From: an uncultured Acidimicrobiales bacterium
GTDB taxonomy: Bacteria > Actinomycetota > Acidimicrobiia > Acidimicrobiales > Aldehydirespiratoraceae
Length of the DNA: 64,000 nucleotides
Reading direction: 5' to 3'
NCBI GenBank assembly: GCA_958296055.1
Contig: CATQHS010000001.1
Span: forward strand, 2,948,277-3,012,276
Shown: piece after piece, positions 19,791-60,174 of the stretch
Numbering within the stretch: the stretch's first letter is position 1
How the letters are laid out: each line of letters opens with the position of its first letter
Notes under the pieces: generated by a model
Database searches by the model: none
The model's input: only the letters and a program-made list of their open reading frames with translations
Told to the model about the DNA's origin: nothing
Position numbers and translations under genes: made by a program

Positions 19791-21173
19791 TTAGTTGGGG
19801 ACGTACTCGAAGACGACGTTGGATTTGCTGGCGTCGAGGTCGTCGGCGCTGTCGTGGCGGATGACGGTGATGCGGGCCGCCGCGCAGTCTCCGTAGCCGT
19901 CGCAGGCGAGGGTGCCGGTGATCCCGGCGTAGCCCGAGACCCCGTCGAGGTGCTGGCGCACCCCGGCCCGGTCGATCATCAGAGATCCGTCGCTGACGTA
20001 GGAGGCGGCCTCGATGGCTTCCAGCAGCAGGGTGGTGGCGTCGTAGGCGTGGGCCCAGAACGACGCCTCGGGGGCCGAGCCGTAGGTGGTTTCGTAGGCG
20101 GCCAGGAAGTCGTCGGCGCTCACGCCGGTGCTCTGGTTGGTGTTGGTCCCGTAGCGCAGGTCCGGCCCCGAGAAGTACATGCCCTCGGACTGGGGCAACT
20201 CCAGGAAGGTGTCCACCAGCAGGCCGTCCGCCCCCAGCCGGGCCGCGTCCTGGAGCCCGGCCACGCCGGGGGCCTGGTCGGCCACGAAGTCACCGGCGGG
20301 CTGGAAGATGGGGAAGAACAACGCCTGAGGCGTTCCGGCGGCCAGCTCGGTGAGCACCGGCACCATGTCGGTGTCCTCCTTGTTGATGCCGGTGAAGCCG
20401 GTCATCTCGCCGCCGAGGGCTTCGAAGGAGTTGGCGAAGCTCTGGGCCAGGCCCTGGGTGTAGGGGTCGCCGTCGTGGATGGCTGCCGCGGTGGTGAGGC
20501 CCAGGTCCTCGAACACGAACTGGGCCACGGCCGCGCCCTGGATCAGGTCGTTGTGGGCGGTGCGGTAGTAGCCGGGCTGGTAGCTGTCGCCGGGGGTGCC
20601 GGCCAAGTCCGAGGTGAGCGACGGGGAGGTGTTGGACGGCGAGATCATCACCATGTTGGCCGCGCTGATCAGCGGCGAGGCCGCCACCGCCGCCCCCGAG
20701 CAGGAGGTGCCGATGACCCCGATCACCTGGTCGTCGGCCACGATGGTCTGGGCCGCGGCCTGGCCCCCGTCGGCCGAGCACAGGTCGTCGAGGCCGGTGC
20801 CCATGTCCACGTCGAAGCCCCGGATCGCCCCGTAGTCGGCGATGGCCATCTCGATGGCCCGCTGCATGGGCAGGCCCAGGAAGGCCACGTCGCCGGTTAT
20901 GGCATTGAGCGAGCGGATCTGGACGGCCTCGCCGGCCGACACCTCCACCTCGCCCAGCGACCCGTCGCCCATGTAGTCGGGCGGTGCCGGGGCCGGGGCC
21001 TCGGTGGTGGTTGCGGCTGGCGCGGTTGTCTCGGTGTCGTCTCCGTCGTCGCCGCCGCAGGCCGCGGCCACCAAGGCGAACGAGGCCATGATCGAAAGCA
21101 GGGCCAGGAATCGGCCCCGCTTCCATTTCCGTCCCTTACGGATTGGCGCTGCCGTGGTTGCTGCGATGGCCAT
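19791..21173 (-). CDS. ABC transporter substrate-binding lipoprotein (LivK-like, copy 1)
   Basis: Type I periplasmic-binding-protein lipoprotein, 460 aa, probably the binding partner of the adjacent Liv permease. The N-terminus has Arg/Lys residues, a hydrophobic stretch and lipobox LVAAACGG, then a Thr/Ala/Pro linker. Family features: QIRSLNAITGDVAFLG, ADDQVIGVIGTSCSG, MVMISPSNTSPSLT, GYYRTAHNDLIQG. A strong GGAGGTTC precedes the ATG. It is one of three tandem paralogues; this copy is nearest the permeases. The ligand cannot be deduced. Confidence 0.9.
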   Translation of the reverse strand: MAIAATTAAPIRKGRKWKRGRFLALLSIMASFALVAAACGGDDGDDTETTAPAATTTEAPAPAPPDYMGDGSLGEVEVSAGEAVQIRSLNAITGDVAFLGLPMQRAIEMAIADYGAIRGFDVDMGTGLDDLCSADGGQAAAQTIVADDQVIGVIGTSCSGAAVAASPLISAANMVMISPSNTSPSLTSDLAGTPGDSYQPGYYRTAHNDLIQGAAVAQFVFEDLGLTTAAAIHDGDPYTQGLAQSFANSFEALGGEMTGFTGINKEDTDMVPVLTELAAGTPQALFFPIFQPAGDFVADQAPGVAGLQDAARLGADGLLVDTFLELPQSEGMYFSGPDLRYGTNTNQSTGVSADDFLAAYETTYGSAPEASFWAHAYDATTLLLEAIEAASYVSDGSLMIDRAGVRQHLDGVSGYAGITGTLACDGYGDCAAARITVIRHDSADDLDASKSNVVFEYVPN

Positions 21174-21267
21174 CGGTGAACCTCCATGGTCGACCGGCCG
21201 AGCGCGTGGTCCCAAGCCGGGTGCTCTCTCTATAACTCTAACAATCGCCCCCGGTGCAGATGAAGCA

Positions 21268-22494
21268 TTAGGGGGCGTATTCGAAGACGATGTTGCGCCT
21301 GCTGGCCGCGATGTCGTCGGCCCGGTCGTGGCGGATGACGGTGATGCGGGCCGCGCCGCAGTCTCCGTAGTCATCGCAGGTGAGGGTGCCGGTGATCCCG
21401 GCGTAGCCCGAGACCCCGTCGAGGTGCTGACGGACCCCGGCCCGGTCGATCACCAGGGCCCCGTCGTCGCCGACCCGGGAGGCGGCCTCTATGGCCTCCA
21501 GCAGCAGGGTGGCGGCGTCGTAGGCGTGGGCCCAGTACGGCGCCTCGGGGAGCGAGTCGTAGGCGGCCTCATAGTCGGCCAGGAAAGCCTCGGCGCCTTT
21601 GCCGGTGCTCTGGTTGGTGTTGGCCCCGTAGCGCAGGTCCGGCCCCGAGAGGTACATGCCCTCGGTTTGGGGCAGTTCCAAGAAGCTGTCGGACAGCAGG
21701 CTGTCGGCTCCGATCAGCACCGCGCTCTCCAGTCCCGGCACCCGAGGAGCCTGGTCGGCCACGAAGCCGCCGGCCGATTGGAAGACGGGGAAGAACAGGA
21801 CTTGGGGCCTGCGGGCGGCGAGTTCGGTGAGCGCCGGCGCCATGTCGGTGTCTTCTTTGGCTATCTCGGCCAAGCCGGTGATCTGGCCGCCCAGGGCTTC
21901 GAGGGAGTTGGCGAAGCTCTGGGTCAGGCCCCGGGTGTAGGGGTCGCCGTCGTGGATGGCCGCCGCGGTGGTGAGGCCCAGGCCCTCGACCACGAATCGG
22001 GCTACGGCTTCGCCCTGGATCAGGTCGTTGTGGGAGGTGCGGTAATAGCCGGGGCGGTGGTTCTCGCCGGGGGTGCCGGCCAGGTCCGAGGTGAGCGACG
22101 GGGAGGTGTTGGACGGCGAGATCATCACCATGCCCGCCGCGCTGATCAGCGGGGACGCCTCTGCCGCCGCCACCGAGCACGAGGTGCCGATGACCCCGAT
22201 CACCTGGTCGTCGGCGGTGATGGTCTGGGCCCCGGCCCGGCCCCCGTCGGCCGAGCACAGGTCGTCGAGGCCGACGCCCATGTCCACGTTGAAGCCCCGG
22301 ATCGCCCCGTAGTCGGCGATGGCCATCTCCACGGCCCGCTGTCTGGACAGTCCCGAAGGGTCCGGGTCTCCGCCTATGGAGTTGAGCGAGCGGATCTGGA
22401 CCGCCTCGCCGGCTGGCACCTCCACTGTGCCCAGCGACCCGTCGCCCACCGGATCGGGTTCGTCGCCGCCGTCGCCGCAGGCCCCGGCCGTCAA
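21268..22494 (-). CDS. ABC transporter substrate-binding protein (LivK-like, copy 2, start lost?)
   Basis: Paralogue of its neighbours, sharing most residues (for example MVMISPSNTSPSLTSDLAGT and RAGVRQHLDGVSGYAGITGT). The only canonical start is TTG at 22494, which begins six codons before the lipobox cysteine (LTAGAC) and would leave no signal peptide. The signal peptide is nevertheless encoded in frame upstream (a basic RKRRRRQ segment, then RLPARLGVAISLA) but without ATG, GTG or TTG. A 15-bp triple repeat lies at the expected 5' end. It may use CTG, have lost its start, or be decaying. Confidence 0.78.
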   Translation of the reverse strand: MTAGACGDGGDEPDPVGDGSLGTVEVPAGEAVQIRSLNSIGGDPDPSGLSRQRAVEMAIADYGAIRGFNVDMGVGLDDLCSADGGRAGAQTITADDQVIGVIGTSCSVAAAEASPLISAAGMVMISPSNTSPSLTSDLAGTPGENHRPGYYRTSHNDLIQGEAVARFVVEGLGLTTAAAIHDGDPYTRGLTQSFANSLEALGGQITGLAEIAKEDTDMAPALTELAARRPQVLFFPVFQSAGGFVADQAPRVPGLESAVLIGADSLLSDSFLELPQTEGMYLSGPDLRYGANTNQSTGKGAEAFLADYEAAYDSLPEAPYWAHAYDAATLLLEAIEAASRVGDDGALVIDRAGVRQHLDGVSGYAGITGTLTCDDYGDCGAARITVIRHDRADDIAASRRNIVFEYAP

Positions 22495-22590
22495 GGCGAG
22501 CGAGATGGCAACCCCCAGCCGGGCCGGGAGCCGGCCCGGCTGTCGGCGGCGCCGCTTCCGGGCGGGCGCTGCCGGTGTTCGCGCCTGGTA

Positions 22591-22635
22591 TCTCAGGGGT
22601 GTTGACCTCAGAGGTGTTGATCTCAGGGGTATTGG
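22591..22635. repeat. 15-bp tandem repeat at the livK copy 2/copy 3 junction
   Basis: Three 15-bp units (TCTCAGGGGTGTTGA and variants) in a row. The last unit holds the stop codon of copy 3. They lie where the start region of copy 2 would be expected. Confidence 0.8.
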
Positions 22636-23927
22636 AAGACGATGTTGGATTTGCTGGCGTCGAGGTCGTCTTTGTCGTCGTGGCGGATGACGGTGAGGCG
22701 GGCCGCGCTGCAGTCTCCGAAATCGTCGCAGGTGAGGGTGCCGGTGATGCCCTGGTAGCCGGTGACCCCGTCGAGGTGCTGGCGCACCCCGGCCCGGTCG
22801 ATCACCAGGGCCCCGTCGTCGTTGATCCAGGAGGCGGCCTTGATGGCATCTAGCAGCAGGGTGGCGGCGTCGTAGGAGTGGGCCCAGTAGGCGCCCTCGG
22901 GGGGCGAGCCGTAGGTGGCCTCATAGGCGGTCAGGAAGGCTTCGGCGTCTTTGCCGGTGCTTTGGTTGGTGTTGGCCCCGTAGCGCAGATCGGGGCCGGT
23001 TATGTACAGACCTTCCGATTGGGGGAGTTGCATGAACGAGTCCACCAGCAGGGCGGCGCCTGCGACCAGAACGGTGTTCTCGAGTCCCGGGACTTCTGGG
23101 GCTTGGTCGGCTATGAAATCGCCGGCGGGCTGGAAGATGGGGAAGAACAGCGCCTGGGGTGCCCCGGCGGCGAACTCGGTGAGCACCGGCACCATGTCGG
23201 TGTCCTCCTTGTTGATGCCTGCGAAGCCGACAATCTGGCCGCCGAGGGACTGGTAGGAGTCGGAGAAGCTCTGGGCTAGGCCCTGGGTGTAGGGGTCGCC
23301 GTCGTGGATGGTCGCCGCGGTGGTGAGGCCCAGATCCTCGTATACGAACCGAGCCACGGCCTCCCCTTGGATCAGGTCGTTCTGAGAGGTGCGGTAGTAG
23401 CCGGGGTGATAGCTCTCGCCGGGGGTGCCGGCCAGGTCCGAGGTGAGTGACGGGGAGGTGTTGGACGGCGAGATCATGACCATGCCCGCGGCGCTGATGA
23501 GCGGGGAGGCCGCCACCGCCGCCCCCGAGCAGGAGGTGCCGATGACTCCGATCACCTGGTCGTCGGCCACGATGGTCTGGGCCGCGGCCTGGCCTCCGTC
23601 GGCCGAGCACAGGTCGTCGAGGCCGGTGCCCATGTCCACGTCGAAGCCCCGGATCGCCCCGTAGTCGGCGATGGCCAACTCCACGCCCCGCTGATTGGGT
23701 ATCCCCAGAGCGGCCACGTCGGCGCTGATGGCGTTGAGCGAGCGGATCTGGACGGCCTCGCCGGCCGGCACCTCCACCGTGCCCAGCGACCCGTCGCCGG
23801 TGTGATCGGGCTGGGCTGGCGCCGAGGCGGTGACCGCGGGCTCGGCGTCTTCGGACCCGCCGCCGCATCCTGCGGCCAGCAGGGCGAATGCGATCGCCGC
23901 TCCCGAGAAAGCCAACCGGCCCGACAC
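22623..23927 (-). CDS. ABC transporter substrate-binding lipoprotein (LivK-like, copy 3)
   Basis: Third tandem paralogue, 434 aa. Signal peptide MSGRLAFSGAAIAFALLAAG with lipobox LLAAGC, then the same type I binding fold (VQIRSLNAISADVAALG, ADDQVIGVIGTSCSG, RAGVRQHLDGVTGYQGITGT). The GTG start has no Shine-Dalgarno but is preceded by TATACT ending 7 bases upstream, so the mRNA is probably leaderless and this is likely the first gene of the liv operon. It is divergent from aroK. Confidence 0.9.
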   Translation of the reverse strand: MSGRLAFSGAAIAFALLAAGCGGGSEDAEPAVTASAPAQPDHTGDGSLGTVEVPAGEAVQIRSLNAISADVAALGIPNQRGVELAIADYGAIRGFDVDMGTGLDDLCSADGGQAAAQTIVADDQVIGVIGTSCSGAAVAASPLISAAGMVMISPSNTSPSLTSDLAGTPGESYHPGYYRTSQNDLIQGEAVARFVYEDLGLTTAATIHDGDPYTQGLAQSFSDSYQSLGGQIVGFAGINKEDTDMVPVLTEFAAGAPQALFFPIFQPAGDFIADQAPEVPGLENTVLVAGAALLVDSFMQLPQSEGLYITGPDLRYGANTNQSTGKDAEAFLTAYEATYGSPPEGAYWAHSYDAATLLLDAIKAASWINDDGALVIDRAGVRQHLDGVTGYQGITGTLTCDDFGDCSAARLTVIRHDDKDDLDASKSNIVFQYP

Positions 23928-26038: not shown

Positions 26039-26662
26039 TTGATCTTCGTCTTCGCCCTGCACGCGGCCGGAGCCGCGGTGCTAGTAGTGGCCGGGCTGGC
26101 CAAGCTGGCCCGCCCCGGCCCCGCCGCAGACCTCCTGGCCCGGCTGGGGCTTCCGGCCCGGCTGGGTCTCGTTCGGCTGGCCGGGTTGGCCGAATGCGCC
26201 CTCGGCGCCGCCGCACTGGCCGTCGGCGACTCGGATCCGGCCCCCGTCGCGCTGCTGGTTGAGGCCGCCGGGTGGCCCTGGCCCCTGCACGGTGGGGCCA
26301 GATCGGTCTTGGCCGCGGCTGTCGGCGGGCTCTACGCCGTCTTCGCCTTCGTGGTCCTCAGAGCCCGAAGGCTGGGAGCCCCATCCTGCGGCTGCCTGGG
26401 CCGGGCCGGGGGACCGCCGTCGTTGAGCCAGGCCGCAGTGGACTTGGTCTTCGCCGCCGCGGCCCTGATCGCCTCCACCGCCCAGCCCGGCTTGACTAGC
26501 ACCCCCCTGGAGGTCCTAGAGCATGTGAACCCCCTCCTCTTCATACCGGCAGTCGGCGTGATCGCCGGCCTGGCCCTAGCCGTGCTCTCCGCCACCCCCC
26601 AGGCCGGGGGGTGGCACGGGGGCCAGGTTTTCGCCGCCCCGCGGCGAAAACCGCGCCCGTGA
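26039..26662 (+). CDS. MauE/DoxX-like membrane protein
   Basis: About 207 aa with four to five hydrophobic segments (LHAAGAAVLVVAGLAKLA, LAGLAECALGAAALAV, VLAAAVGGLYAVFAFVVL, LLFIPAVGVIAGLALAVL) and a CGCLG cysteine pair after the third, as in MauE-type proteins linked to disulfide or electron transfer. Start is TTG, the only one in frame. The last ~20 residues (ATPQAGGWHGGQVF...) are encoded by a copy of the dispersed repeat module, so the original C-terminus was probably replaced or extended. Confidence 0.65.
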   Translation: MIFVFALHAAGAAVLVVAGLAKLARPGPAADLLARLGLPARLGLVRLAGLAECALGAAALAVGDSDPAPVALLVEAAGWPWPLHGGARSVLAAAVGGLYAVFAFVVLRARRLGAPSCGCLGRAGGPPSLSQAAVDLVFAAAALIASTAQPGLTSTPLEVLEHVNPLLFIPAVGVIAGLALAVLSATPQAGGWHGGQVFAAPRRKPRP

Positions 26663-26690
26663 CAGGACCCGCCGGCCGGACAGAGCAAGG
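26591..26690 (-). repeat. solo copy of the GTCCTGTCAC dispersed repeat module
   Basis: On the minus strand this reads CTTGCTCTGTCCGGCCGG, then CGGGTCCTGTCACGGG, an internal palindrome (GGTTTTCGCCGC / GCGGCGAAAACC), then CCCCGTGCCACCCCCCGGCC. It is the same module seen twice at 58.2-58.4 kb and, without the palindrome, at 60.1 kb. It overlaps the end of the MauE-like gene. Confidence 0.85.
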
Positions 26691-31448: not shown

Positions 31449-31591
31449 AGTTCTCGGGCCGCCCCCCCCCCCCCCCCAAGCCCCCCCAAGCCCTGCCCGC
31501 CCCCCCCAAGCCCTGCCCGCCCCGCCCAAGCCCTGCCCGCCCCCCAGCCGAAAACGCCAATCCCCGCACAACCGCAAAGGACGTGATCGAC
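31449..31591 (+). repeat. poly-C tract and CCAAGCCCTGCCCG repeats before leuA
   Basis: A run of 16 C (31462-31477) is followed by three or four copies of a 15-17 bp unit around AAGCCCTGCCCGCC. No gene is visible here. The strand is almost pure pyrimidine for about 90 bases, ending just before the leuA ribosome-binding site AAAGGA. Confidence 0.75.
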
Positions 31592-41529: not shown

Positions 41530-42783
41530 TCAGTTCCTGGGCACCTCGCTCCAGGGGATCTCCTTGTCCACCCGGGGCTCGCCCGGCAGGCCCAGCACCT
41601 GCTCGCCCAGGATGTTGCGCATGACCTCGCTGGTGCCGCCCTCGATGGAGTTGGCCCGAGACCGCAGGAACTCGTGGTGGGGGTCGCGGGCCCGGCCCGT
41701 GCCGGTTATCTCCTCGGGCCGCCGGTAGGTGTAGTCGTAGCCCACCGCCCCGGCCGGCCCCTCCAAGTCGATGATGGTGGACCGCAGCTCCTGGTTGAGC
41801 TCGGCGCCCATCAGCTTGCTCACCGACCCCTCCGGGCCCGGGTTCTTGGCCCTCATGTTCTCTGAGGCCCGCAGGACGGTCAGCCGCAGCGCCTCGGCCT
41901 TGACCCACAGCCGCATCGCCTGATCGAGATGGACGCGGGTGCGGACGCCGGGGTCCATGCCCCGGTAGGCGTCGACGATCAGGTCGGTGGGCTTGCCTCC
42001 CCCCACGGGATTGTTGCCCCCGATGGCGGTCCGCTCGTTCATCAGCGTGGTGAGGGCCGCTCTCCAGCCCTCGCCCACCCCGCCGATCCGGCAATCGTCG
42101 GGCACCCGCACGTCGGTGAGGTAGACCTCGTTGAACTCGGCCTCGCCGGTCATCTGGCGCAGGGGCCGGACCTCCACCCCCTGGCTGCGCATGTCCAGGG
42201 CGAAGTAGGTCAGCCCCTTGTGCTTGGGGAGGTCGGGGTTGGAGCGGGTGACCAGCATCCCCCAGTCGGCGGCGTGGGCCAGCGTCGTCCACACCTTCTG
42301 GCCGTTGACCACCCATTCGTCGCCGTCGAGGACGGCCCGGGTGGCCAGGCCGGCGAAATCCGAGCCCGCACCGGGCTCGCTGAAGAGCTGACACCAGAGG
42401 TCGGCGCCGGTGAACATGGGCCGCAGGAAGCGATCCTTCTGCTCGTCGGTGCCGTGGGTGACGATGGTGGGCCCGGCCAGCCACATGAAGAAGGTGCCCG
42501 ACTTGGGCGGGGCGGCCCCGGCCCCGCGGAGGCGGTTCTCTACCCGGCGGTTGAGCTCGGAGCGGACCCCGAGCCCGCCCCGGCCGGACGGGAAGTGAAC
42601 CCAGGCCAGCCCGGCGTCGAAGCGGTGGCCCCGGAACTCCTCGTCGCCGGTGGTTGCGGGGTCGTGATCCCGCAGCAGGGACTCGACCGCTTCGTCCACC
42701 ATCAGGGCCTGCTCGTCGCCGGGTCCGGCTGCGTCGGCGTGGATGGTGCTGGCGGGGGTGGCGTCCGTGTGCGTCGCGCTCAT
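41530..42783 (-). CDS. acyl-CoA dehydrogenase
   Basis: FAD-dependent acyl-CoA dehydrogenase, 417 aa. FSEPGAGSDFAGLATRAVLDGDEWVVNGQKVWTT-type segments are seen in two parts, QLFSEPGAGSDFAGL and WVVNGQKVWTTLAHAADWG; LRQMTGEAEFNEVYLTDVRV and the C-terminal SIEGGTSEVMRNILGEQVLG complete the fold. The usual catalytic glutamate region is present only in part, so the substrate class is unclear. Start ATG; the divergent promoter region contains the first palindromic element. Confidence 0.93.
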   Translation of the reverse strand: MSATHTDATPASTIHADAAGPGDEQALMVDEAVESLLRDHDPATTGDEEFRGHRFDAGLAWVHFPSGRGGLGVRSELNRRVENRLRGAGAAPPKSGTFFMWLAGPTIVTHGTDEQKDRFLRPMFTGADLWCQLFSEPGAGSDFAGLATRAVLDGDEWVVNGQKVWTTLAHAADWGMLVTRSNPDLPKHKGLTYFALDMRSQGVEVRPLRQMTGEAEFNEVYLTDVRVPDDCRIGGVGEGWRAALTTLMNERTAIGGNNPVGGGKPTDLIVDAYRGMDPGVRTRVHLDQAMRLWVKAEALRLTVLRASENMRAKNPGPEGSVSKLMGAELNQELRSTIIDLEGPAGAVGYDYTYRRPEEITGTGRARDPHHEFLRSRANSIEGGTSEVMRNILGEQVLGLPGEPRVDKEIPWSEVPRN

Positions 42784-42815
42784 GCCGTCAAGCTACCTTG
42801 TGTTCTTCCGAGCTT

Positions 42816-42864
42816 GTTTTCTGAGCAAGTGTTGTCGTATATCGACAACCGATGCTCAGAAAAC
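42816..42864. repeat. palindromic element, copy 1 (intergenic)
   Basis: A 49-bp inverted repeat: outer arms GTTTTCTGAGCA / TGCTCAGAAAAC and a perfect inner palindrome GTTGTCGTATATCGACAAC. It lies between the divergent acyl-CoA dehydrogenase and MDMPI genes, 28 bases before the latter start. A second copy is inside mutA. Both strands are open in one frame and read FSE..LS..DN.CSE-like peptides. Confidence 0.85.
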
Positions 42865-42892
42865 CGGCGGAGCGGAGAGGGGAGGGCCGGCC

Positions 42893-43678
42893 TTGCGCAC
42901 GGAACTGATCGACAGGACCGAGGAGTGCTTCGCCGCCATCTCGGGACTGTGCGCCGACCTGGGCCCCGATGAGTGGGAGGTGCAGTCGCTGTGCCCGGCC
43001 TGGACGGTGCGGGAGGCGATCGCCCACACCGTCGGGGTGGAGGAGGCGCTGACCGGATGGGAGGTCACCGCCGAGAGCCTTCCCCCCTTCGAGAAGATGC
43101 TGGCCCTCACCGAGGCGGCCCCGGCCATGAGCGCCCCCGAGTTCAGGGCCCGGGTCGAGGGGGCCTTCGCCGCCCGGCGGGCCGAATTGGGTGCCCTGGC
43201 CGACGCCGACATGGACCGGCCTGCGCTCACCCCGGTGGGCAAGGCCACCTACGGCCGCTTCCTGGCCATCCGGGTCTTCGATCTGTGGGTCCACCTGCGG
43301 GACGCCTCCATCCCGCTGGGCCGGCCCACCGACGACGGCGGTCCGGCCGCCGAGATGGTGCTCGACGAGGTGGCGGGGGCCATCGGCTACATCGCCGGCA
43401 AGAAGGTGGGGCTGCCCGACGGCATGACCATGCGCATCGACGTCGACGGCCCGGTGCGGCGCCGGATCGGGGTGGCGGTGGACGGGAGGGCCGCGGCCGT
43501 CGATCCCGAGTCTCTGACCGCCCCCGACGTGGTGCTGGCCGCCGACTCGACCACCTTCATCATGCTGGCCTGCGGGCGCATCGACCCCCAGGCCAAGATC
43601 GACGAGGGGGCCATTCGCTGGACCGGCGACGCCGAATGGGGCGAGCGGGCCGCCCGCAACCTGGCCTTCACGATTTGA
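42893..43678 (+). CDS. maleylpyruvate isomerase-fold (MDMPI/DinB-like) protein
   Basis: Actinobacterial protein of the mycothiol-dependent maleylpyruvate isomerase family (TIGR03083-like), 261 aa. The N-terminal helical bundle has LCPAWTVREAIAHTVGVEEAL and RFLAIRVFDLWVHLRDA (metal-site histidines), and a C-terminal sterol-carrier-like half ends FIMLACGRIDPQAKIDEGAI. The reaction is unknown. TTG start chosen because GGGAGG lies 7 bases upstream and the family N-terminus begins here. mutA follows immediately. Confidence 0.85.
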   Translation: MRTELIDRTEECFAAISGLCADLGPDEWEVQSLCPAWTVREAIAHTVGVEEALTGWEVTAESLPPFEKMLALTEAAPAMSAPEFRARVEGAFAARRAELGALADADMDRPALTPVGKATYGRFLAIRVFDLWVHLRDASIPLGRPTDDGGPAAEMVLDEVAGAIGYIAGKKVGLPDGMTMRIDVDGPVRRRIGVAVDGRAAAVDPESLTAPDVVLAADSTTFIMLACGRIDPQAKIDEGAIRWTGDAEWGERAARNLAFTI

Positions 43679-43692
43679 CCGGCCTTGGCTCG

Positions 43693-45630
43693 GTGACCGG
43701 CCTTACGCTGGCCGGCGAGTTCCCGGCCGTCGGCGCCGACGATTGGACGGCGCTGGTCGAGCGGGTGCTCGGGGGCCGGTCCTTCGAAGAGGTGCTGGTC
43801 GGGGCCACCTCAGACGGCATTGAGATCGAGCCCCTTTACGTCGGCTCGGACCGGGACGCAGACGAAGCAACGGCCCGGCTCGTCCGGGGCCTGAGCCTGC
43901 GCAACCCGAGCACCGAGGGCGCCGGGCCCGCCCTCGAAACGCAGGCGGCCGGAGGCTGGGACGTCCGCCAGCACTGCGACGGGACCGACCCGGCCGAGGT
44001 CCGGGACCGGCTGCTCGCCGATCTCGGCGGCGGGGCCGCTTCGGTCGAGATCGGACCCGGCCCGGCCGCCGCCGACCTCGGCCCGATCCTCGAAGGGGTG
44101 AGGATCGACCAGACTCCCGTCGGGCTCGCCCCCCACGCCGAGCCCGCCCGGGCCGAGGCTCTGGCCGAGCTGGCCGGTCGGTCAGGCCCGGCGGCGGCGC
44201 CCGGCTGCTCCCTCGGGTTCGACCCGGTGGGGGAGTGGGCCCGCTCGGGCCGCCCGGTGGACCCGGCCCAGGCCGCCCGGCTGGTGGAGAGGCTCAAGGG
44301 CCGGGGGCAGCTCCGCCCGGGAATGCGGGCGGTGGCGGTGGATGCGGCCCGGCCGGCCGCGGCCGGGGCCACCGAGGTCCAGGTGTTGGCCTGGGCGACC
44401 GCGGCCGGGGTCGCCTACCTGCGGGCGCTGACCCAGGCCGGATCGAGCGTGGAGGAGGCGGCCGGGCTGATCGGGTTCCGCCTGCCCGCCGCCGCCGACC
44501 AGTTCGCGACCATGGCCATGCTGCGAGCGGCCCGGGTGATGTGGGGCCGGGTGGTGGCCGCCTCCGGCGGATCGGGGCCGGCCGCGGCCCAGTACCAGCA
44601 CGCGGTGACCGACGAGGCCATGTACAGCCGCCGCGACCCGGGGGTGAACCTGCTGCGGGGCGCCGCCGCCGCGCTGGCCGCCGGGACGGGCGGCGCCGAC
44701 GCCGTGACCGTGCTGCCCCTTGACTATGCCGCCGCCGGAATACCGGGCGGGCTGGGGGCTCGGCTGGCCCGCAACACCCAGTTGCTGCTGCTGGAAGAGG
44801 CCCAGCTCGGCCAGACCTTCGACCCGGCCGGAGGGTCGTTTTACGTCGAGTCGCTCACCCGCGAGCTGGCCGAGCGGGGCTGGCGGGCGTTCCAGGCCGT
44901 CGAGGCGGCCGGGGGCATCATGGCCGTGCTGGCCGACGGGACCATGGCCGAGGCCATCGAATCGAGCTGGAACAACCGGCTGGCCGCGCTGGGAACCCGG
45001 TGCCAGGCGGTGACCGGGGTCAGCGACTTCCCCCTGCTGGAGGAGCCCCCGCCGGATAGCCGCCCCGGCGGGTTGTCGGACCGCCGCCCCGACGGTTTTT
45101 CTGAGCATCCGTTGTCGTATGGCGACAATCCTTGCTCAGAAAACCAGCAGAGCCCGGGCGGCGGGCTGCCGGTGCGGCGACCGGCCCAGCCCTTTGAGGA
45201 TCTGCGCGACGCCGCCGACCGCCACCTGGCCCGGACCGGGCGGCGGCCGACCGTGGCGGTGGTGGCGCTAGGCCCCGAGGCCGCCCACGGGCCCCGGACC
45301 GCCTGGGTCCGCAACCTGCTGGCCGCCGGGGGAGTGGCCGCCGTCGGCGGGCGCGGCGACGGAGCCGCTTCGCCCGTCGAGGCCGCGGCCGCCTTCGGAG
45401 CCGGCCCCGACCGGACCGCGGTGATCACCGGGTCCGACGAGGCCTACTCCCAGCGGGCGGCGGCCACGGCCCGGGCCCTGGCCGGGGCCGGAGCGACCCT
45501 GGTGGCGCTGGCCGCCGACCCCGAAGAGGGCTGGGACGACGCGCGGGCCGCGGGCGTGGACGAGTTCTGGCACGACGGGATGGACGTGCTGGGGGTGCTG
45601 GGCCGCCTGCACGCCGCGCTCCTAGGCTGA
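43693..45630 (+). CDS. mutA: methylmalonyl-CoA mutase small subunit MutA
   Basis: Non-catalytic chain of the B12-dependent mutase, 645 aa. The TIM-barrel region includes EVQVLAWATAAGVAYLRALT, AADQFATMAMLRAARVMWGR, RRDPGVNLLRGAAAALAAG and DPAGGSFYVESLTRELAERG. The C-terminal flavodoxin-like domain lacks DxHxxG, as expected for the small chain. Between the domains a palindromic element is inserted in frame (GFSEHPLSYGDNPCSEN). No large subunit (mutB) is in the window. GTG 43693 is preferred; TTG 43675 overlapping the upstream stop is possible. Confidence 0.9.
   Translation: MTGLTLAGEFPAVGADDWTALVERVLGGRSFEEVLVGATSDGIEIEPLYVGSDRDADEATARLVRGLSLRNPSTEGAGPALETQAAGGWDVRQHCDGTDPAEVRDRLLADLGGGAASVEIGPGPAAADLGPILEGVRIDQTPVGLAPHAEPARAEALAELAGRSGPAAAPGCSLGFDPVGEWARSGRPVDPAQAARLVERLKGRGQLRPGMRAVAVDAARPAAAGATEVQVLAWATAAGVAYLRALTQAGSSVEEAAGLIGFRLPAAADQFATMAMLRAARVMWGRVVAASGGSGPAAAQYQHAVTDEAMYSRRDPGVNLLRGAAAALAAGTGGADAVTVLPLDYAAAGIPGGLGARLARNTQLLLLEEAQLGQTFDPAGGSFYVESLTRELAERGWRAFQAVEAAGGIMAVLADGTMAEAIESSWNNRLAALGTRCQAVTGVSDFPLLEEPPPDSRPGGLSDRRPDGFSEHPLSYGDNPCSENQQSPGGGLPVRRPAQPFEDLRDAADRHLARTGRRPTVAVVALGPEAAHGPRTAWVRNLLAAGGVAAVGGRGDGAASPVEAAAAFGAGPDRTAVITGSDEAYSQRAAATARALAGAGATLVALAADPEEGWDDARAAGVDEFWHDGMDVLGVLGRLHAALLG
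45095..45144. repeat. palindromic element, copy 2 (in frame inside mutA)
   Basis: A 50-bp copy of the element found at 42.8 kb: arms GTTTTTCTGAGCA / TGCTCAGAAAAC and core GTTGTCG-TATGG-CGACAAT. It keeps the mutA frame open and falls in the linker between the barrel and the C-terminal domain. Similarity to copy 1 continues a few bases beyond the right arm. Confidence 0.85.
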
Positions 45631-46930: not shown

Positions 46931-47029
46931 AGTTACCTCCTTCCCAAAAATCGACTCCGAATATATGATCACGTGCCCGCCGGTTCCCAGGTTCCTGCTG
47001 AAACGCCCTTCGACATGGCCCGGGGTCTT

Positions 47030-48091
47030 CTACCAGCTTCGTTTTGTTAGGCTTACAAGGTTACCGCCCCACCAAAAGTTGACTAGATATGTGTGATGTC
47101 CGCTGGCCAGGTTCTCGTAGATGCAATCTAGATTACCGCTCGTATTTGACGCGCATAGTAGGTAATCTCCTGGCGGTAGTGCCGTCTCGGCCGACCCGTC
47201 TGGGCCGGTGGTGATCACATGAGCCCAATCGTGTGCTAAGTTTTCAGAACTAACCTGTAATCTATGCTCTTCCAACTCGTTGGCTCCGTTGTCGGAGATG
47301 GCTGCCCACCAGGCGTTGACATGGGCCGCACCGACGACGATTATGTCCGTATTATCGGATGGATGGGATGGTTCGATGTCGTCGTTGTAGGTAGCTTCGA
47401 ATGTGATGGTTGCCGGTGTCCCTGCCAATCTCGTGTCGTCTAGGAACCGCTGGTATCGATCGCTGGCCCCCACTTCTATGACGGCATGACCGTGAGTGAA
47501 ATAAATGTATACGGTAATATGGTTATTTGACTGTAGAGAGAGATAACCTAGAGAAAGATGATGGCTGCATCCGGCTATCAGATCATTGATTGGCGATATG
47601 GCGCACAACGAATGATCATCTGTCTCTGGGTCATAGGCGAAGCGCAGCTCGGCGGTTCCGTTCGGGCCGGTGGTGATGAACTGTGCTGGAGCGGAGGCGA
47701 GCCTTTCAGCGGTGGACTGCACTCGCACTCCTGGGGGGATGAAACGGCGGATGCCCAGTTCGTCTCCCCCCACAGCCGTCCACCAATCTTCCAATAAATC
47801 CAAGGACACCGAAGAATTCCGGGATGTGTCTTGTATGACGGCGATGCGGATATCGGGCAGCATGGCGCAGGGCTTGTCGTCGTCGCTGTCGACGTCGCCG
47901 TAGGCTACGAACCTGACGGTCACCGTGTCGTCGCCGGGCCCGGCCGTTTCGTCCAGCGCGGTGACATCGCACACCGCGGCCGGTGAGACAACCGCTGGAC
48001 CGGTCGAGTCGCAGGCGTAGAATATGCTCGCAGCGGCGACGAGCAGCCCGCACAGGAGCCAGAATAGGATTTTATACGTGCGGGTTTCCAT
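47030..48091 (-). CDS. secreted lipoprotein of unknown function, paralogue A
   Basis: Unrecognised family, 353 aa. N-terminal signal METRTYKILFWLLCGLLVAA with a possible lipobox SIFYAC. The mature part has VRFVAYGDVDSDDDKPCAML, a tryptophan-rich segment (LEDWWTAVGGDELG) and two beta-sandwich-like repeats resembling prealbumin-type domains (ITTGPNGTAELRF; ITTGPDGSAETALPPGDYLLC). Cysteines occur in spaced pairs, suggesting disulfides. It ends one residue later than its paralogues (KRSW). Lower GC than the flanks. Function unknown. Confidence 0.8.
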   Translation of the reverse strand: METRTYKILFWLLCGLLVAAASIFYACDSTGPAVVSPAAVCDVTALDETAGPGDDTVTVRFVAYGDVDSDDDKPCAMLPDIRIAVIQDTSRNSSVSLDLLEDWWTAVGGDELGIRRFIPPGVRVQSTAERLASAPAQFITTGPNGTAELRFAYDPETDDHSLCAISPINDLIAGCSHHLSLGYLSLQSNNHITVYIYFTHGHAVIEVGASDRYQRFLDDTRLAGTPATITFEATYNDDIEPSHPSDNTDIIVVGAAHVNAWWAAISDNGANELEEHRLQVSSENLAHDWAHVITTGPDGSAETALPPGDYLLCASNTSGNLDCIYENLASGHHTYLVNFWWGGNLVSLTKRSW

Positions 48092-48134
48092 GAGATTGCT
48101 TTCGTTGAAGGCGATGTTCGACGTCGGTTTTCTA

Positions 48135-49316
48135 TCAGCTTCGTTTTGTTATGCTTACAAGGTTACCGCCCAACCAAAAGTTAACTAGATATGTGTGATG
48201 TCCGCTGGCCAGGTTCTCGTAGATGCAATCTAGATTGCCGCGCCAAGTGGCTGAGCATATTAGGTAATCTCCTGGCGGTAGTGCCGTCTCGGCCGACCCG
48301 TCTGGGCCGGTGGTGATCACATGGGCCCAATCGTGTGCTAAGTTTTCAGAAGTAACTTGTAGTCTATTCGCTTCCAGTTCGTTAATTGGGCCGTTGTAGA
48401 TAGCTGTCCACCAGGCGTTGACGTGGGCGGCACCGACGACGATTATGTCCGTATTATCGGATGGATAGGATGGTTCGATGTCGTCGTTGTCGGTAGCTTC
48501 GAATGTGATGGTTGCCGGTGTCCCTGTCGATCCTGTGTCGTCTAGGAACCGCTGGTATCGATCGCTGGCCCCCACTTCTATGATGGCGTGACCATGAGTG
48601 AAATAAATATATACTGTAATATGACTAATATGATCACTTGGAAACCCTCTCAGAGATAGATTGTGTTTGCATCCGGCTATCAGATCATCGATTGGTGATA
48701 TGGCGCACAACGAATGATCATCTGTCTCCGGGTCATAGTCGAAGCGCAGTTCGGCGGTTCCGTCCGGGCCGGTGGTGATGAACTGCGCTGGAGCGGAGGC
48801 GAGCCTTTCAGCGGTGGACGGCACTCGCACCCCTGGGGGGATGAAACGGCGGATGCCTAGTTCGTCTCCCCCCACAGCCGTCCACCAATCTTCCAATAAA
48901 TCCAAGGACACCGAAGAATTCTGGGATGTGTCTTGTATGACGGCGATGCGCACATCGGGCAGCATGGCGCAGGGCACGTCGTCGTCGCTGTCGACATCGC
49001 CATAGGCAACGATACTCACCGATGTATGGCTATCATCAGGCCAAGGACCAGCCCTGGTCGCCTCACTCAGCGGCGCGACATCGCACACCGCCGACGGTGA
49101 CACAACCGGCGCAGCCGGCGAGGCGGGCAAGACCCGCGAAGTCACAGGCGCAACCGGCGTAATAGACGGCGCCACCGGCGAAATAGATGACGGCGCAGCC
49201 AGCGTAACCGCGGAAGCGTCTTGTGGGACGGGCGCGTCTCGGCTGGCGCAGGCCCCGCTGGCCACCGCGGCCATCAGTCCGCATAAGAGCGTCCGGGTCG
49301 TCGTTGTCTTGTTCAC
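48135..49316 (-). CDS. secreted lipoprotein of unknown function, paralogue B
   Basis: 393 aa. The last two thirds are nearly identical to paralogues A and C, but the N-terminus differs: signal RTLLCGLMAAVASGAC with lipobox, then an Ala/Pro/Ser/Val-rich linker of about 60 residues. The GTG start overlaps (GTGA) the stop of a small FN3-like fragment upstream, so its 5' end looks recombined. Same domain layout and probable cell-surface location as its paralogues. Confidence 0.8.
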   Translation of the reverse strand: MNKTTTTRTLLCGLMAAVASGACASRDAPVPQDASAVTLAAPSSISPVAPSITPVAPVTSRVLPASPAAPVVSPSAVCDVAPLSEATRAGPWPDDSHTSVSIVAYGDVDSDDDVPCAMLPDVRIAVIQDTSQNSSVSLDLLEDWWTAVGGDELGIRRFIPPGVRVPSTAERLASAPAQFITTGPDGTAELRFDYDPETDDHSLCAISPIDDLIAGCKHNLSLRGFPSDHISHITVYIYFTHGHAIIEVGASDRYQRFLDDTGSTGTPATITFEATDNDDIEPSYPSDNTDIIVVGAAHVNAWWTAIYNGPINELEANRLQVTSENLAHDWAHVITTGPDGSAETALPPGDYLICSATWRGNLDCIYENLASGHHTYLVNFWLGGNLVSITKRS

Positions 49317-49504
49317 GGGCCGGCGGGTGCGGTGGGGGTGGCTGCGGTTTGGCTGGGTTGGCTGGTGCCGGTTGGGTTGAGGGCTCGGATTTGTACTTGG
49401 TTGCGGAGGTTGTTGGTGATGACGGGCATGGTGTGGCTGGTGGTGGCGGGGGTGCTGTTGTAGATGTGGTGCCAGCAGCGCCAGTCGGTTGTGTAGGTTT
49501 CCAT
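49313..49504 (-). pseudogene. fragment of a fibronectin type III domain, fused to a METxT start
   Basis: 63-residue frame beginning METYTTDWRCWHHIYNS and ending VQIRALNPTGTSQPSQTAAT, the typical last strands of an FN3 domain. The first codons resemble the start of paralogues A and C (METRTYK), suggesting a recombination joint. Its stop overlaps the paralogue B start. It is too short to be a complete domain. Confidence 0.55.
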
Positions 49505-49548
49505 GAGATTGCTTTCGTTTGAAGGCGATGTTCGACGTCGGTCTTCTA

Positions 49549-50598
49549 TCAGCTTCGTTTTGTTATGCTTACAAAGTTACCGCCCAACCAAAAGTTAACT
49601 AGATATGTGTGATGTCCGCTGGCCAGATTCTCGTAGATGCAATCTAGAATACCGCCCTGATTTGGCGCGCATAATAGGTAATCTCCTGGCGGCAGTGCTG
49701 TCTCGGCCGACCCGTCCGAGCCGGTGGTTATCACATGAGCCCAATCGTGTGCTAAGTCTTCAGAACCAACCTGTAATTTATTCGCTTCCAGTTCATTGGC
49801 TCCGTTGTCGGAGATGGCTGCCCACCAGGCATTGATGTGGGCGGCACCGACGACGATTATGTCCGTATTATCGGATGGATGGGATGGTTCGATGTCGTCG
49901 TTGTAGGTAGCTTCGAATGTGATGGTTGCCGGTGTCCCTGCCAATCTCGTGTCGTCTAGGAACCATTGGTACCGATCGCTGGCCCCCACTTCTATGGTGG
50001 CGTGACCGTGAGTGAAATAAATGTATATGGTAATATGATAATTCGGCCGTAGATGGAGATGATGATGGCTGCATCCGGCGATCAGATCATCGATTGGCGA
50101 TATGGCGCACAACGAATAATCATCTGTCTCCGGGTCATAGTCGAAGCGCAGTTCGGCGGTTCCGTCTGGGCCGGTGGTGATGAACTGTGCTGGAGCGGAT
50201 GCGAACCTTTCAGCGGTGGACGGTACCCGCACTCCCGGGGGGATGAAACGGTAGATGCCCAGTTCGCTTCCCCCCACAGCCTTCCACCAGTTCAACATGT
50301 CGTCTTTTTCTTTATCTGCACTATTTGCATGCTCTTCGCTTATGACGGCGATGCGCACATCGGGCAGCATGGCGCAGGGCTTGTCGTCGTCACTGTCGAC
50401 GTCGCCGTAGGCTACGAACCTGACGGTCACCGTGTCGTCGCCGGGCCCGGCCATTTCGTCCAGCGCGGTGACATCGCACACTGCTGTCGGTGAGACAACC
50501 GCTGGACCGGTCGAGCCGCAGGCGTAGAATATGCTCGCAGCGGCGACGAGCAGCCCGCACAGGAGCCAGAATAGAATTTTATACGTGCGGGTTTCCAT
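49549..50598 (-). CDS. secreted lipoprotein of unknown function, paralogue C
   Basis: 349 aa. The N-terminus is identical to paralogue A through the signal peptide (lipobox SIFYACG) and nearly so elsewhere; one internal segment differs (VISEEHANSADKEKDDMLNWW instead of VIQDTS...LEDWW). Both share the 5' flank CATGAGAT(T/C)GCTT and the 3' end TKRS. Likely the product of recent duplication in the island. Function unknown. Confidence 0.8.
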   Translation of the reverse strand: METRTYKILFWLLCGLLVAAASIFYACGSTGPAVVSPTAVCDVTALDEMAGPGDDTVTVRFVAYGDVDSDDDKPCAMLPDVRIAVISEEHANSADKEKDDMLNWWKAVGGSELGIYRFIPPGVRVPSTAERFASAPAQFITTGPDGTAELRFDYDPETDDYSLCAISPIDDLIAGCSHHHLHLRPNYHITIYIYFTHGHATIEVGASDRYQWFLDDTRLAGTPATITFEATYNDDIEPSHPSDNTDIIVVGAAHINAWWAAISDNGANELEANKLQVGSEDLAHDWAHVITTGSDGSAETALPPGDYLLCAPNQGGILDCIYENLASGHHTYLVNFWLGGNFVSITKRS

Positions 50599-50634
50599 GA
50601 GATCGCTTGCGTTTTAAGGCGATGTCGACGCCGG

Positions 50635-58144: not shown

Positions 58145-58500
58145 TTGCTTGTCGGCCTGCGGGTCCTGTCACGGGTTGCTCCCTTTTTGGGCGCTTGCTC
58201 TCTCCGGCCGGCGGGTCCTGTCACGGGGGCGGTCGTCGCCGCAAGCGGCGCCGACGCTAACCCCCGCGCCACCCCCCGGCCTGGCGCACGAGCCCGATCG
58301 AGCCGGTTGCCCCCTTTTTGGGCGCTTGCTCTCTCCGGCCGGCGGGTCCTGTCACGGGGGCGGTCGTCGCCGCGGGTGCGGCGCCGACGCTGGCCCCCGT
58401 GCCACCCCCCGGCCTGGCGGGGCCGGTGTCTGGGGACTGGTTGTCTGGTTCGCTCCGGGTCTGTGCTACCCCCCGGCCTGGCGGGCCGGTGTCTGGGACT
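58145..58500 (+). repeat. left cluster of GTCCTGTCAC modules
   Basis: The 470-base gap between the amidohydrolase and the HNH gene has no gene but several copies of one module. A short copy (core 58163-58172) is followed 52 bases later by a full copy (core 58215-58224) and 131 bases after that by a second full copy (core 58346-58355). Full copies run CTTGCTCTCTCCGGCCGGCG, core, an internal palindrome (GGTCGTCGCCGC / GCGGCGCCGACG), then GCCACCCCCCGGCCTGGCG. A fragment of the last part recurs at 58463. Confidence 0.85.
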
Positions 58501-60073: not shown

Positions 60074-60174
60074 GGTGCGCCAGGCCGGGGGGTTGCCCCC
60101 GTGACAGGACCCGCCCGCCGGACAGAGCAAGTGCTCAAGGGGAAGCAACCCCGTGACAGGACCCGCCGGCCGGA
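60074..60174 (-). repeat. right cluster of GTCCTGTCAC modules (inverted)
   Basis: Two copies on the minus strand with cores at 60101-60110 and 60153-60162, 52 bases apart, the same spacing as the outer two left copies. The first keeps the ends of the full module (CTTGCTCTGTCC..., CCCCCCGGCCTGGCGCAC) but lacks the internal palindrome. Together with the left cluster they form a long inverted repeat around the HNH gene. Confidence 0.85.

Follow-up and report, generated by a model that had tools for sequence, protein, structure and literature searches.

Short hairpins that share the arms TTCTGRGC/GCYCAGAA occur at 11–56 copies in scattered genomes of the order Acidimicrobiales, and this is the new observation reported here. 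The hairpins came to notice as two palindromes of about 50 bp in the window, a 64,000-nucleotide stretch of DNA from an uncultured Acidimicrobiales bacterium (source genome G000), one of them lying in frame within mutA. The initial annotation of these palindromes described something real, and their distribution is larger than it claimed. The hairpin is probably a short non-autonomous element (~43–51 bp), of a family so far found in Acidimicrobiales, that is moved in trans by a putative arm-recognizing enzyme. No report of such repeats in Acidimicrobiales was found in the literature (open-licence papers); for Acidimicrobium ferrooxidans, RepRanger gives no more than a number of predicted palindromes.

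Palindromes in the window and in the source genome

The palindrome was found at both of the window sites where it had been described, each copy being 51 bp long (Table 1). The two copies have the arms TTTTCTGAGCA/TGCTCAGAAAA and the inner stem GTTGTCG-N5-CGACAA(C/T), and the outer arms in the source genome are GGTTTTCTGAGCA/TGCTCAGAAAACC. Single-strand folding of both window copies is strong (z = -6.9 to -9.4).

Table 1. Coordinates of the palindromic elements and of the genes that contain or flank them in the window
Feature	Position	Strand	Details	Evidence
Palindromic element, intragenic copy	45095..45145		51 bp in mutA; arms 45097-45107 and 45133-45143; inner stem 45111-45117 and 45123-45129	Covariance model 77.5 bits, fold
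Palindromic element, intergenic copy between divergent genes	42815..42865		Arms 42817-42827 and 42853-42863; inner stem 42831-42837 and 42843-42849	Covariance model 64.3 bits, fold
mutA, methylmalonyl-CoA mutase small subunit	43693..45630	+	645 aa	Pfam PF01642, 6oxc_B alignment, relatives' alignment, frame scores
Acyl-CoA dehydrogenase-like gene, left of intergenic copy	41530..42783	-	Start 31 bp from element	By reading
Maleylpyruvate-isomerase-like gene, right of intergenic copy	42893..43678	+	Start codon uncertain	By reading

A covariance model trained on 19 copies detected 24 distinct copies in the 3.3-Mb source genome (best-strand E 1e-20 to 6e-11), far more than two, so the family is not limited to the window pair. 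The arm 11-mer TTTTCTGAGCA occurs 38 times genome-wide and its reversed control not at all, and 15 palindromes have perfect arms. The copies are 50–52 bp long, and alignments show arms that are nearly invariant from copy to copy; mean column identity is 86%, for which reason movement may not be recent. To the left (5') of the element the flanking sequence is C-rich, to the right (3') G-rich. Four of the copies form two head-to-tail pairs with a spacing of 61 bp. In an arm search of G000 and of a second carrier, G009, the arms were almost never found unpaired, and a role as uptake sequence was rejected on this ground.

Other repeats are also present in the window. A second short repeat around CCGGCCGGCGGGTCCTGTCACGGG occupies six sites (26659-26673, 58158-58172, 58210-58224, 58341-58355, 60101-60115, and 60153-60167) against 0.5 expected, and it also adjoins the palindrome copy at 113.8 kb of the genome (L039). 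Three tandem paralogous genes at 47024-50613, with 300-bp blocks 77–94% identical, represent a recent tandem duplication, and three more on the minus strand at 19800-23927 have blocks 72–85% identical. A C-run with 20-bp tandem repeats (CCCCCCAAGCCCTGCCCGCC) at 31462-31541 lies directly upstream of a gene start.

Related hairpins in other Acidimicrobiales

The covariance model was applied to 60 relatives, and only G009 (OFTM10), which belongs to another genus of the same family, was positive, with at least 12 copies and about 17 on inspection. The G009 copies (51–52 bp) have the same outer arms and 51-bp length, and their inner stem is of the CGCGCG type as against TTGTCG in the source genome. 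Inner-stem pairs differ in both of their bases between the two genomes, with the structure kept in 94% of cells (32 copies). The covariation score over these 32 copies was 0.240 compared with 0.105 for shuffled and at most 0.097 for slid alignments, a difference that counts as few events because the signal is mostly one replacement between two genomes.

A pattern of TTCTGRGC, 20–36 bases, and GCYCAGAA was searched in 397 genomes of the order, a draw that G009 stood outside. Outer-arm hairpins numbered 56 in G216, 44 in G043, 34 in G240, 31 in G096, 18 in G000, and 11 in G219; the reversed pattern gave none in all six of these high-copy genomes, and counts elsewhere in the order were 1–3 or none. 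In a draw of 396 genomes across the phylum, none of those outside the order had more than three matches. Each carrier genome has its own particular inner stem, and CTGTCG-N-CGACAG as an order-wide inner motif was not clearly above control. The link between carrier genomes rests on a pattern that itself requires the arms, so it would overlook families whose arms differ; by our estimate, one 8-base arm would be common to unrelated palindrome families by chance only rarely. Copies are absent from six congeners of G216 (G192, G166, G278, G296, G329, and G375) and three of G240 (G038, G313, and G405).

Head-to-tail arrays in these genomes are evenly spaced, at 61 or about 70 bp. Joined flanks of G240 and G216 elements, with the element omitted, were compared with congeners in search of empty sites. 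At one G216 site, five head-to-tail copies extend over 364 bp, and G329, G296, and G278 align through the junction without the array (74–78% identity), the array spacer being too diverged for exact placement of the junction. This alignment makes clear that, in the related family of G216, a syntenic site can be occupied in one genome and empty in others of the genus; it is no demonstration of movement by the window's own family.

Some further observations concern the surroundings of individual hairpins. The element adjoins homologous genes (FolD-like by reading; 44% identity over 283 aa) at 198.4 kb of contig C1 in G000 (L038/L051) and at 373 kb of contig C1 in G240 (L183), which may be chance. 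Two genera have a hairpin ahead of one and the same small gene (L186 in G240 and L189, 1-1275, in G216; 60% identity over 109 aa), and the upstream neighbours differ. Locus L212 of G493, a genome of the same phylum and outside the class, holds three hairpins of 39 bp; their arms are TTCTGAGC and their inner stem is of the TTGCG type, and they may form a small outlying family.

Insertion in mutA

The identity of MutA is supported by Pfam PF01642 (E 3.5e-77). The claim that the palindrome adds residues in frame to the interdomain linker was borne out by codon scores and alignments: the open reading frame continues across the element with no stop codon, and the frame that scores positive for codon usage is the same to its left and to its right. 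The element encodes about 17 residues, GFSEHPLSYGDNPCSEN. Alignment with the mycobacterial small-subunit structure 6oxc_B places the end of domain 1 of the G000 protein near residue 453 and the beginning of domain 2 at residue 492, and the insert falls between them. Alignment of MutA from relatives showed that the GFSEHPLSYGDNPCSEN segment is absent from all 29 (the nearest at 58% identity) and is thus not conserved there. Linker length varies among these homologues; between two conserved blocks it is 42 residues in the G000 protein, 17 of them from the element, versus about 18 in the nearest relatives. As far as protein alignment at ≤58% identity can tell, the 17 in-frame residues are an insertion not present in the relatives.

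Position of the copies relative to genes

When genes were called with a simple model trained on the window, 23 of the 24 copies in the source genome proved intergenic and only that in mutA mid-gene; it is also the only clearly intragenic one, with five in genes if gene ends are counted. The same model gives a coding share of 83% for the window and 90% for the stretches from other carriers, so that random insertion would be expected to land nearly all copies in genes. A single mid-gene copy among 24 has P about 2e-18 under 85% coding. The element behaves as a short interspersed hairpin repeat of the REP/REPIN/RPE kind that mostly avoids genes.

Several copies border on genes and contribute to their ends. 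At three intergenic copies, a TGA from the element terminates the upstream gene, the arm reading V-F-stop in frame 1; the genes stopped in this way encode a PCMT-family protein, a mandelate-racemase/enolase-type protein, and a 131-codon frame without assignment. A fourth gene, of the HycI protease family, terminates at the element edge. On either strand, frames 0 and 2 are free of stops in 21–24 of the 24 copies, whereas frame 1 is open in one and meets TGA in 23. All four peptides quoted earlier for both strands of the window copies are correct, but their similarity is a trivial outcome of palindromy together with the position of TGA in the arm and is no signature of coding design. Survival in frame needs no such design either, because 51 = 3 × 17 and two of the three frames are open.

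The gene context bears on two other explanations. The hairpin could be a DNA-binding site (an operator or a nucleoid/architectural site), in which case a dimeric protein would bind the arms and the presence of a copy in mutA would be incidental. The near invariance of the arms, the constant ~51 bp in two genera, and the location of 11 of the 24 source-genome copies between divergent genes are what such a site would lead one to expect. We consider it unlikely, as contexts are mixed and genome-dependent (with convergent or tandem arrangements prevailing in the other carriers), the inner stem stays a stem while its sequence changes, copies form tandem arrays, presence within a genus is sporadic, and one copy is mid-gene. 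Less likely still is an RNA element, such as an mRNA 3' end hairpin, a stabilizer, or a processing site, spread by selection as has been argued for many REPs. The hairpin is strong on either strand, several copies abut stop codons, and in other carriers the hairpins are found chiefly between genes in convergent or tandem orientation. However, the T-run is on the wrong side for a terminator (TTTT at 5' and AAAA at 3'), by which transcription termination is ruled out; nearly half of the source-genome copies are between divergent genes; no Rfam family matched at the gathering threshold, with sub-threshold chance matches only; and the sporadic amplification would be left unexplained.

Search for a mover

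A search with PF01797 was negative for Y1/RAYT transposases in G000, G009, and G043 but positive in other relatives and in E. coli. No arm pair surrounds a gene-sized segment, as would be expected of an autonomous partner, in G000 or G009 with one mismatch allowed. The neighbour genes of the sampled elements include no transposase common across genomes, and no recurring neighbour gene offered itself as a candidate mover in this sample. No target-site duplication was seen; short repeats flank one or two copies only, e.g., ACTTGGG at L032. Insertion into pre-existing palindromes was rejected, since complementarity of the true flank pairs does not exceed that of shuffled ones. A plasmid or phage origin was likewise set aside, with no match except a single viral one that is a chance AT-rich match.

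These results weigh on the possibility that the element is a REPIN moved by RAYT, a Y1 tyrosine transposase. GTAG REPs and REPINs are associated with RAYT and a GTAG tag, and GTAG REPs also give stop codons to neighbouring ORFs (PMC3733652, PMC3116915). The hairpin unit, intergenic bias, multiple copies, tandem arrays, and donation of stop codons in Acidimicrobiales are all REP/REPIN-like (PMC3116915, PMC3733652), and the regular spacing of the head-to-tail arrays resembles that of REPIN clusters (PMC3116915). In contrast to REPs and REPINs, alignments of flanks and cores contain no GTAG tag, three carriers lack PF01797 matches for Y1, and long outer arms are common across genera with the inner stem exchanged. 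On these three carriers, a RAYT-moved REPIN is very unlikely.

Comparison with other short palindromic repeats

Rickettsia palindromic elements (RPEs) are about 150 bp long and nearly half are located in ORFs (PMC10969869). The initial annotation had likened the palindrome to these elements, and part of the likeness holds: it is a dispersed palindromic family without a known dedicated transposase, and it has added residues in frame to an intact protein (here mutA only) that are missing in 29 relatives. The gene-inserting logic is not supported, as the element has 51 bp and one of 24 copies mid-gene, well below the length and the ORF share of RPEs; the bacteria are also unrelated. A true Rickettsia-type element, selfish and adapted to in-frame gene insertion, is therefore very hard to credit despite the 17-residue insertion in mutA and the presence of four open frames (of six) in almost every copy, for those open frames follow from the arm sequence and one of 24 copies is intragenic in about 83–90% coding DNA.

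CGTC REPs (including RPE-4 and RPE-6) have been described as having no transposase, an 8–9 bp stem, an unpaired CGTC (TGTC) tag, and a CCA tail (PMC3733652). The present hairpins resemble them in being short palindromes that lack a dedicated transposase and in occurring in some cases in frame within a gene, but they have an 11–13 bp outer stem, an internal loop, a 6–7 bp inner stem, and no unpaired tag. Like MITEs, they have conserved terminal inverted repeats and a variable middle; unlike MITEs, they are very short and show no target-site duplication. Arms shared with an autonomous transposon were not seen within one mismatch in G000 or G009. Lacking the defining tags, they are filed as a variant of short palindromic repeats and not as RPE, GTAG, or CGTC repeats, from which they are set apart by the descriptions of those repeats. 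The earlier statement that no such family is known in actinobacteria was too strong, since untagged REP-like repeats have been noted in M. tuberculosis (PMC3733652).

Proposed mechanism and significance

A non-autonomous element acted upon through its arms fits the dispersed and sporadic copies, the fixed arms, the exchanged core with the hairpin kept, the intergenic bias, the arrays, and an insert absent in relatives. That the element moves, and that the arms are the target of an enzyme, we infer from this combination. A trans-acting enzyme would most likely recognize the outer arms, whether presented as paired ends or within a hairpin (extruded or single-stranded), and would then copy or move the unit to new places. 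Insertions in genes would mostly be removed by selection. The mutA copy may have survived as about 51 bp without target duplication, equivalent to 17 codons, entering one of the two open frames in a variable linker. Had it landed in the third frame, the arm would have supplied a TGA stop, as at the ends of three other genes.

It is possible, at somewhat short of even chances, that Acidimicrobiales harbour an undescribed class of mobile hairpins with fixed TTCTGRGC/GCYCAGAA arms, inner stems replaced by lineage, a mover that is neither RAYT nor an obvious IS transposase, and occasional in-frame protein remodelling. The remodelling aspect rests on a single copy, that in mutA, which offers a clean example of peptide gain in an enzyme without a break of frame. 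Short palindromic repeats without a known mover, such as RPEs and CGTC REPs, raise the question of what spreads them. The invariant arms, the exchangeable cores, and the close genomes with 56 versus 0 copies provide a direct comparative route to the enzyme.
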